Shown: positions 24,664 through 27,918 of the stretch, piece by piece
Numbering within the stretch: position 1 is the first letter of the stretch
Layout of the letters: each line of letters starts with the position of its first letter
The notes under the pieces: model-generated
Databases searched by the model: none
Seen by the model: the letters and a program-made list of their open reading frames with translations, nothing else
What the model was told of the DNA's origin: nothing
Translations under genes and position numbers: made by a program
From: Microbotryomycetes sp. JL201
Lineage: Eukaryota; Basidiomycota; Microbotryomycetes
DNA length: 53,069 nt
Direction: 5' to 3'
NCBI GenBank assembly: GCA_033819885.1
Contig: JAQYUZ010000066.1
Span: forward strand, 1 to 53,069

Positions 24664-27600
24664 TTAGTGGAGTGAGGATAGCGAAGCTGCTGGCCACTCC
24701 GAGATCTTGCAACGGAAGTGGGACTCGATGTTGCGCAGCATCTCGAGCTCTGCGTTGGCAGCGACGATATTGACGATGACTGCAGACCGGCCATTATTGC
24801 CGCTCGTCGACGCGAGGCCGACCCTGAACGAATTCCGACGTGGGTTAGCAGTGCTTTTGCGCTGATCAGAAGACTACTGCGAACCTCGACTGGTAGTCCT
24901 CCCAGACTCGTGGCAATTCAAAGTTGATGACGAGCGTGACCGGAGGCGCGTCCGTCAAGTTGCGGCTGAGTGCGTCATACACGACGAGTGCCTTCTTCAG
25001 GCCGCCACTGCGGGGAGAACCAGAGCTCCGGAAGCGAGACATGAGCGCAGAGCGAGCAGAGCTGCTCAAGTCTTGGTGCTGCAATGGTCGCGCAAAAAAA
25101 AATCAATTCTTGACTAAATGCGACGACAACGCCAAACTTACCAGCACATACGAATCAATTCCTGACGAATTGAGTTTATAGCTGACGGCCTCGACCGAAT
25201 CGACGCTTGCGCAGACAACAATCTGACGCAACGGACCGTTAGCGTGCTTTCGGGGCGAGCGAACCAGCCAAGCTCACGGCTGTCTCGTAAACATTTTGGC
25301 GACACAAGTCCGCAAGGGCTTGCAGTTTGTGTTCCCTTGCCGTGCCAAGGTCCATGCGATCAGAGCCTGGAGCTTTCGACGTCGACTGGACAGGTCTGTT
25401 CCGCATCGACAGTCAGGTCGAGCGCAAAATATGCAGGCAAGCAACATACAGGAAGTACTGGCGAACACCACGCGAAGACGGACTAGCTGTCTCGGCGGTG
25501 TCGCGCCGAGCGAGCACGCGGACGACTTCGCGGCCTTGTAGCGAGCCCGCGAACGTGAGGACGTCCTGGGGTACTGTGCAGCTGAAAATGACCGTTTGAC
25601 GGCTGGGAGTGCTCGAGTCCGACCCAGCGCCCAAGCTGGACCGGGAGCCGGATATCGAGTCTGCCAGCATCTTAGCAATCGACGACACGTGATCTGACAA
25701 ATTGCGAGCCAGAACTTGGTCGCACTCGTCCACGACGAGCATTTTGACGTCGACGAGATTCAGTCCAACCTTGAGCAATTCGTGCATCTTATGAGGAGTG
25801 CCGACAAGCACTTGAGGTCGCGTCTTTGTCAGATTGGCAACATCGCCCTTCAGGTCCGAGGACGAAGGGTGACCGGCGATAAGCGCCGAATGAATGCCAA
25901 AGGCCGAACCGAGGCCGGAATAGAGACGGTGAGCTTGAGCGGCTTGGTCGACTGTGGCAGTGATGACTAAAGTCTGGATGCCACGCGGAGACCCACCGTG
26001 CTCCGAGACCATGTTCGCAAGCATCAATTGCAGCGACGGAATGACGTAGCTTTGAATGCGTTCCTGAATGGCGGGAGCCTGCGCTATCACGTCCTGCATG
26101 CGCGCCACCACAGGGATCGCCTTCATTTGCACCTTTGTTGGCGGTCCGATACTACAGGTAAGAGGCTAGAGTTAGCTACAGCTTCTTGTGCTAGCAAGCC
26201 CCAAAAACTCGCCCATATTTTGCCACCGCCCTAAACAGGTCGGCGCCGATACCAAGGGCTTCCCATTTGCTGCCAAGACTGCCTGGGGGGTTGCTACCGG
26301 GCACAGGACTCGATGCGCCCAGTGAGCTGCCACTGGTCACCATTGGCGAAGACGCAGGGTCCCACGACGAGCCATTCAGGCTATTGCCTCGCGTCATGCT
26401 CGTCGCGCTGAGTGACCGCATCATGGCATTTTTCGAAGCGTTGCCGCTGTATGCAGTTTGAGGATGAGAAGCGTTGGTAAGACCAAGGCCCGAGACTGCG
26501 GCGGTTTTGTTGCTGATGCCGATCATGTCGCGCCTCCAGTTCTCAGCGTAAGGTGAGGAAGATTGGGGCGCAACGGGGCTTGATACGTGGCGCTGCTGTT
26601 GATTGAACGTAGCGGGATGTTGTACGGCGGCGGGTCCGACGCCCGCAGACATCAGGTGAGTCACAGTGGAAGACAACGCGTTGATTTGGGCTGTCAGCAG
26701 ACTGATCTGGTCCTGACGATCCTTGTCCAAGGTATCCATAGGCGACAGCGGAGACACTGAAGAAGAAGCGATCACTGGATGGGGTGCGAGGATCCCAGGA
26801 GACCTCTGCGCAGGACGTCCGTTGCCGATGGCTGGCGATGTGGACAGGTCTCTGTCGAGAGCAGACTCGGGTGCGTGACCCACGCTTCCCACGCTTGCTT
26901 GGATGACGAAAGTCCTTAACATGTTCATCTCTTTTTTCATCGCCCGCATCTCCGCGTCTTGCGATGCCGCCAAGTCTTGCAATCCGGTTTCCAGTTGCGT
27001 GACGCGGCTCGAGAGGGAAGAAAGCATATTGAACACGCGAGGATCGTGTGAGTGATTGCCAATAGGTATCTCAGCAGATGTGACGTCGTCTGTCAACTGG
27101 GATACTGTCGTCTGGCTCGCTCTTGCGCTACTGAAGTCGAAACCCACACTGCCTATATCACTGGATGCGCTACGCGCTGGCGAGGGCACGCGAGACAGGG
27201 TAGGCGAAACGGCCGTGTCGACGGAGAGCATGCCATACGGTGATCCCGACACCGCCGCTTTGCGGTCTCTTGCCTGGTCGGCTGGGAGTACGTCGAGAAT
27301 GAATGAGGAAGGGCGGCTTTTTGGGACTGCGATTGACGTGAAAATTTGCTCTGAATCGACAGCTGCCGAGGCTGGCGGAATGTTGCGGTCGAGGTCTCGT
27401 AGCACCGGTGGCAAAGCCCGCGTTCGATGCGCTTCTGGACTAGAATTGGCCGGTCGGCCGTCGCCAATTGAGCCCAATGCCGATCCAGCAGCAGCAGACT
27501 TGTTGCGATTGACAGACCCTCCAGGTGCTGCGTCCCATCCGGTCGTGAACGATAAATTCGGAGAGGAGCTGTATGCGTCCTCATGCCGCGAGACAATGGC

Positions 27601-27918
27601 GTCATCGTTCTCGGACGCTTCAATGAATGAGTGGCGTTTCGGACGTAACTGCTCCCGTGACGTGTCCAGCGACTGCAACGTGAGTTCAGGGCTGCAGCTG
27701 CGCAAGAATTCGTGCTGCGACGGAGCTGTCACGGACGACTGAGTGGTGCGGTGCAGGAAGACATTTGACGCGTCAAATAGATCTGAACCGTCGTTGACGC
27801 CATTCTGAGAGGAGCTCGAGTCGATCCGACTTGCTTGACGGTACGCGACCGCGTCGCCTGGGCGGCTCAGACTGAGCGTAGGGCTCGCGACGCGTCCGGA
27901 AGACGATGGCGAGGCCAT
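24664..27918 (-). CDS. DEAD-box helicase-like pseudoenzyme with long disordered, coiled-coil N-terminus
   Basis: The N-terminal 570 or so residues are S/P/T-rich with short coiled coils (VTQLETGLQDLAASQDAEMR; DQISLLTAQINALSSTVTHL). The C-terminal part follows the eIF4A/DEAD-box plan. A Q motif is present (KWEALGIGADLFRAVAKYG, then IGPPTKVQMKAIPVV). Motif I is replaced by AQAPAIQER at 26058-26084, so the Walker A G-K-T is absent. VLVGTPHKM (Ib) remains. Motif II is DECD at 25719-25730 and motif III is SCT. The C-terminal RecA-like lobe is recognisable (VTLVINFELPRVWEDYQSR, AELEMLRNIESHFRCKISEW), but the motif V region reads SRNLTD and motif VI reads SRVGLAS instead of HRxGRxxR. Thus ATP hydrolysis is not expected. 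Exon YG-IGPP is joined by a GC-AG intron (26152-26212). The ATG at 27918 is chosen; the open frame extends upstream without an ATG. Confidence 0.78.
26152..26212 (-). other. GC-AG intron in the DEAD-box-like gene
   Basis: The coding strand reads AAATATGG followed by GCGAGT at the 5' end, and CTGTAG followed by TATCGG at the 3' end. Removing these 61 bases restores YGIGPPTKVQ, the conserved Q motif. No GT donor nearby keeps that frame. Confidence 0.75.

Follow-up and report, generated by a model that had tools for sequence, protein, structure and literature searches.

A predicted eIF4A-derived pseudohelicase with a rebuilt, invariant motif I, conserved among basidiomycete fungi

What becomes of a DEAD-box protein once several of its ATPase and helicase motifs have gone is the question raised by a gene of Microbotryomycetes sp. 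JL201, found in a stretch of 53,069 nucleotides (contig JAQYUZ010000066.1; hereafter the window, at its full length). This gene occupies the minus strand from an ATG at 27918 to a TAA ending at 24664, exactly where an earlier note made from the letters alone had placed it, and its spliced product of 986 amino acids corresponds letter for letter to the NCBI protein OIV83_006192 (Microbotryomycetes sp. JL201; P0001). As judged from sequence comparison and structure prediction, the protein belongs to a real, old and conserved pseudohelicase family, and the explanation that best fits the observations overall is probably a basidiomycete pseudohelicase derived from eIF4A and acting as an ATP-independent scaffold.

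Regarding the fold, PF00270 (DEAD, 57.8 bits) and PF00271 (Helicase_C, 41.2 bits) both exceed their Pfam cut-off on the 986-residue protein, so that its resemblance to helicases is not due to chance. The last ~440 residues correspond to two RecA lobes in the AlphaFold2 model as well as in the fold matches from the PDB, which together with the two domains places the protein in the DEAD-box fold superfamily. The proposal that an eIF4A-like DEAD-box fold had been kept is upheld by these domains, by the two-lobe model and by the top rank of eIF4A in sequence and profile searches. Relatives were collected by three protein searches, which listed 55 of 55, the best 120 of 407 and the best 120 of 320 matches, respectively, and 251 different proteins were fetched, 248 of them members of the family; columns were counted on an aligned set of 73 diverse members sharing <80% identity. 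The motifs of the window protein, with their state in these sets, are:

26263..26265, minus strand: Trp552, at the aromatic position upstream of the Q motif; Trp in 73/73
26055..26084, minus strand: rebuilt motif I, AQAPAIQERI, residues 592-601, where AxxGxGKT is expected; Q598, E599, R600 and I601 invariant (73/73)
25926..25955, minus strand: motif Ia region, TVDQAAQAHR, residues 635-644, where PTRELA is expected; PTREL in 0/248
25788..25802, minus strand: motif Ib, GTPHK, residues 686-690; GTP in 248/248, T and P in 73/73 aligned members
25719..25730, minus strand: motif II, DECD, residues 710-713; DExD in 248/248
25701..25709, minus strand: family-specific invariant ARN, residues 717-719; 73/73
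25575..25583, minus strand: motif III, SCT, residues 759-761; S and T in 73/73
24950..24976, minus strand: degenerate motif V, DALSRNLTD, residues 904-912, from the sequence reading and the family alignment
24808..24895, minus strand: degenerate motif VI, YQSRVGLAS, residues 931-939, interrupted by intron 5; HRxGRxxR in 0/248

The earlier readings of motifs I (AQAPAIQER), Ib (GTP), II (DECD), V (SRNLTD) and VI (SRVGLAS) are thereby borne out. The spliced protein has no GxGK[TS], and neither GxGK[TS] nor [AG]xxxxGK[TS] occurs in the six unspliced frames of 24664-27918, a search that did not extend to motifs created only by other splice junctions.

The altered motif I is a property of the whole family, since all 248 members exhibit [AS]Q[AS]xxxxER and no GxGK[TS] at this place; the remaining 3 of the 251 fetched proteins (P0053-P0055) are canonical helicases with GTGKT. 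One family member does contain a GEGKT string, but distant from motif I, in its N-terminal part. Every member lacks HRxGRxxR and PTREL and has DExD, GTP and S[CN]T[VL]PQ; 243/248 match the Q-motif pattern and 242/248 match T[VLF]D[QE]A at motif Ia. The nearest relative, from JL221, reads AQAPAIQER at motif I and DYQVRVNLCAS in the motif VI region, i.e., this close relative does not have the normal motifs I and VI that would have contradicted the earlier note. That note had proposed a conserved pseudohelicase resulting from an old functional change and not a dying gene, and the changed motifs shared by the relatives support it on both counts.

The column counts further indicate replacement. At the columns of T80-G81-K82-T83 of human eIF4A-I, the family has Q, E, R and I in 73/73, which turns the Walker lysine into Arg and the Thr into Ile, while the loop glycine columns are occupied by Thr or Ile, and by Glu. 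Among 21 segments compared, motif I ranks last for identity to eIF4A (0.12) and first for conservation within the family (0.91); because the least eIF4A-like segment is yet the most conserved one, selected replacement and not decay is indicated, and the motif I change is almost certainly old and selected. When a near-invariant column is defined as one kept in at least 72 of 73 members, lobe 1 has 44/200 such columns versus 7/162 in lobe 2, and within lobe 1 they make up 10/14 of the ATP-pocket columns versus 34/186 elsewhere (Fisher p 5e-5), the 14 pocket positions being our own choice based on the motifs.

The adenine side of this pocket is kept, with Trp552 in every aligned member and Q577 in 72/73; the distance from Trp552 to the Q-motif Gly is 16 residues, which equals that of the corresponding Phe in the eIF4A of JL201 itself. 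D710, E711, D713, S759 and T761 are each found in 73/73, and the third residue of motif II is V, C, M or T, with A in 1/73. Of the two arginine-finger columns, that of R362 has Arg in 0/73 members and that of R365 in 1/73, and the first motif VI Arg (R359) is retained in 51/73. Motif V retains its Arg in 14/73 and its Gly in 4/73, and the 27 matches to a loose ARGxD pattern all fall off motif V, being located after motif IV. The roles given to these residues are those of their counterparts in canonical DEAD-box proteins. R362K and R365K have been reported to abolish helicase activity (PMC7470955). On these grounds, the family is very probably catalytically dead, hydrolysing no ATP and unwinding no RNA. 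Just after motif II, a second invariant patch peculiar to the family (25701-25730) reads DExDQxIARNL against DEADEMLSRGF in human eIF4A-I, with Q714, A717, R718 and N719 in 73/73.

As for its origin, the helicase domain of the window protein has its best PDB sequence matches in eIF4A-III and eIF4A-I (~100 bits), followed lower down by yeast eIF4A (85 bits), Dbp10 (81) and Dhh1 (80), and a family profile scores 242 bits against eIF4A-I, 218 against yeast eIF4A, 217 against eIF4A-III, 135 against Dhh1 and 124 against DDX39A. Among paralogues in JL201, the eIF4A locus (L004) ranks first, and it is canonical, with GTGKT, DEAD and HRIGR. In a tree of 39 rows, from which eIF4A-III was absent and where several other JL201 rows were long-branched, the 26 family rows formed a single clade (100/100) adjoining two eIF4A rows (92/81). 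That the pseudohelicase might be the eIF4A orthologue of JL201 was considered and rejected, given this separate clade and the canonical eIF4A elsewhere in the genome. By sequence, then, the family descends from the eIF4A group. With eIF4A (DDX2/Tif1) and eIF4A-III (DDX48), it has in common the two RecA lobes, the Q motif, DExD, SxT, the motif Ib GTP, an EWKLD-type helix and an LVINYDLP strand; it differs from both in being without the Walker A lysine and threonine, PTREL, the motif V ARGxD and HRxGRxxR, and in its N-terminal region of ~545 residues with two long helices. No eIF4A-III orthologue was found in the JL201 assembly with its own eIF4A and the human eIF4A-III core as queries, the 71% match being the eIF4A locus itself and the others, mostly exon pieces, at most 50% identical. 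Two Mago exon matches are present in the same assembly, and the missing eIF4A-III may reflect either an assembly gap or the loss of a core part of the exon junction complex.

Among the matches listed, the family comprises the yeast-type genera Rhodotorula, Sporobolomyces and Leucosporidium as well as Microbotryum, the rusts Puccinia, Phakopsora and Cronartium, the smuts and their kin Ustilago, Sporisorium, Tilletia, Exobasidium and Meira, and many mushroom members, including Tulasnella and Rhizoctonia, genera which we take to cover Pucciniomycotina, Ustilaginomycotina and Agaricomycotina. The smut members carry the database name "related to TIF2 - translation initiation factor eIF4A". One member (P0185) is catalogued under a fern, Adiantum nelumboides; it shares 47% identity with the basidiomycete-like query P0041 and is probably a fungal contamination of that genome. 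An RRM domain occurs in some mushroom and Tulasnella members (P0033, P0114, P0131, P0227, P0232), N-terminal in the three that were scanned, and may be either a true fusion or the product of merged neighbouring gene models.

The N-terminal ~545 residues mostly have a predicted local distance difference test (pLDDT) score <50 in the AlphaFold2 model, from which two long helices stand out with confidence:

26893..27042, minus strand: predicted long helix 1, residues 293-342 (AlphaFold2 block means 70-89)
26644..26730, minus strand: predicted long helix 2, residues 397-425 (AlphaFold2)

Of the long, disordered coiled-coil N-terminus that had been suggested, the disorder and the long helices are thus recovered, while the coiled coil is our own reading of the model, in which both helices are probable coiled coils. 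A helix pair (58-99 and 127-153) is present too in the smut relative P0190. Helix 2 is 69% identical to its counterpart in the JL221 protein, and the linkers on its flanks are 40% and 51% identical.

Taken together, a mechanism can be proposed. With the phosphate-binding loop residues and both arginine-finger positions lost and the two-lobe fold kept, the protein would neither hydrolyse ATP nor unwind RNA; the rebuilt lobe 1 pocket and the surface around it would hold a fixed partner, which may be a second protein or part of the same chain; as coiled coils, the N-terminal helices would oligomerise the protein; and the whole would serve, beside eIF4A, as an ATP-independent scaffold or regulator in mRNA translation or in the assembly of messenger ribonucleoprotein particles (mRNPs). 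Within this proposal, a protein-protein scaffold is rather likely and a role in translation or mRNPs is a tentative possibility. The RNA or eIF4-complex scaffold suggested beforehand is favoured by the eIF4A ancestry, which supports a link with translation, and is countered by the changes in motifs Ia, GG and V and by the partial retention of the eIF4G-contact residues.

Several observations weigh against a scaffold derived from, and working beside, eIF4A. The retained DExD, SxT and adenine-side Q motif are not obviously needed by a pure scaffold, helix 1 is only 44% identical to that of the JL221 protein, and an eIF4A-type partner surface on lobe 2 is weakly kept, because lobe 2 drifts (7/162 against 44/200 near-invariant columns). 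Of the published eIF4G contacts of eIF4A, namely R45, D265, E268, D296 and T298 (PMC7470955), R45 is kept in 71/73, D265 in 65/73 with 7 further members having Glu, and the E268 column has Glu in 41/73 and Asp in 22/73, while D296 becomes Gly in 61/73 and T298 becomes Glu or Asp in 73/73; yeast itself has Lys at the D296 position (PMC6262856). Keeping three of the five contacts is not above background (P 0.28, for a background of 38% of columns). The window protein keeps only two, with Arg at the E268 position, a substitution that lowered the eIF4G binding of human eIF4A (PMC7470955), and further has Gln at D261 and His at W258. Docking on eIF4G is therefore disfavoured in JL201, and direct docking on eIF4G is unlikely for the family.

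The same surface bears on the idea that the protein is a decoy or regulator of eIF4A, docking through its eIF4A-type lobe 2 helix on eIF4G or on some other MIF4G protein encoded in the genome. Identity to eIF4A reaches 51% over segment 255-268, the second highest of the 21 segments, with E257, K259 and D265 kept; the JL201 genome has seven MIF4G exon matches, five of them over the cut-off, and the fold matches include the pair structures eIF4A-eIF4G, eIF4AIII-CWC22 and DDX6-CNOT1. Against this, two of the five contacts are replaced family-wide, and with the Arg of the window protein and the background-level retention just described, such docking is likewise doubtful. The retained pocket residues would find a use if lobe 1 bound an adenine-containing ligand other than a triphosphate (AMP, adenosine, a dinucleotide or an RNA base), lodged between the kept aromatic and Gln residues and the new QERI loop and switching the scaffold. 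The conserved adenine side, the invariant DExD and SxT and the phosphate side, rebuilt yet invariant, agree with this, as does the enrichment of pocket columns among the invariant ones, but folding or protein contact could also preserve those residues, whose individual roles are transferred from canonical DEAD-box proteins; a repurposed pocket is accordingly improbable, and its extension into an eIF4A-derived ATP motor turned sensor of such a ligand, switching a coiled-coil scaffold that acts on translation, is more improbable again. The invariant Arg could also be imagined to stand in for the Walker lysine, with hydrolysis continuing on the DExD, since DExD and S[CN]T[VL]PQ are universal in the family and the Q-motif pattern nearly so; the Ile in place of the Walker Thr in 73/73, the substituted loop glycines, the lack of the motif VI pattern in all 248 members and the near absence of Arg at the finger columns make an active ATPase very improbable. 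The joint alteration of several catalytic motifs is what a decaying pseudogene or a faulty gene model might produce, but the 986 codons of the six exons form an unbroken frame, the NCBI annotation is identical, and the relatives sharing the changed motif I rule this out. The eIF4A-derived, ATP-independent scaffold is hence the reading preferred here.

The gene has five introns of 54-63 bases each, as follows:

26213..27918, minus strand: exon 1, with the start codon, the disordered region, the two long helices and the start of lobe 1; protein identical to P0001
26152..26212, minus strand: intron 1, of GC-AG type (GCGAGT..TAG), splitting the Q motif
25450..26151, minus strand: exon 2, with the bulk of RecA lobe 1
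25278..25395, minus strand: exon 3
25142..25222, minus strand: exon 4
24885..25078, minus strand: exon 5, with motif V and the start of motif VI
24884-24824, minus strand: intron 5, splitting motif VI
24664..24823, minus strand: exon 6, with the end of lobe 2 and the stop codon

Of the neighbouring open reading frames (ORFs), one lies head to head with the gene and encodes a ribosomal L19 domain, and another is kinase-like, its Pkinase match falling short of the cut-off; neither is informative on the function of the pseudohelicase.

The literature searched did not yield any account of this family as a pseudohelicase. A comparable case is Utp25/Def, described as a pseudohelicase and similar, by description, in its helicase fold, degenerate motifs and disordered N-terminus; growth is reported to have been unaffected when its motifs Ia and VI were mutated (PMC9539457). 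Unlike Utp25/Def as portrayed in the available passages of that article, this family has DExD and SxT intact, and its named members are basidiomycetes except for the fern-filed one. Two basidiomycete-specific DEAD-box helicases, UMAG_05873 and UMAG_00835, were listed by Seto and Saville (2025), who report several canonical motifs in them without showing the data (PMC12511879). UMAG_05873 resembles the present family in being a DEAD-box protein whose close relatives, in the tree of that paper, are all from Basidiomycota, and in its STRING links to translation proteins; it differs in its reported canonical motifs, the loss of motif I not being mentioned in the available passages (PMC12511879). 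UMAG_05873 probably belongs to the present pseudohelicase family. The available passages of PMC11941951 mention UMAG_00835 and not UMAG_05873, and UMAG_05873 was not found elsewhere in the literature searched beyond PMC12511879. What is new here is the family-wide view together with the invariant rebuilt motif I.

In databases, many members of the family go under the name of RNA helicase or eIF4A, and domain-based pipelines would count them as active enzymes. If the family is indeed enzymatically dead, helicase counts and translation models for basidiomycete fungi would need correcting, and the family would also constitute a clean natural case of an ATPase pocket recruited to a different function. 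The invariant QERI loop offers a single, precise target for mutation.
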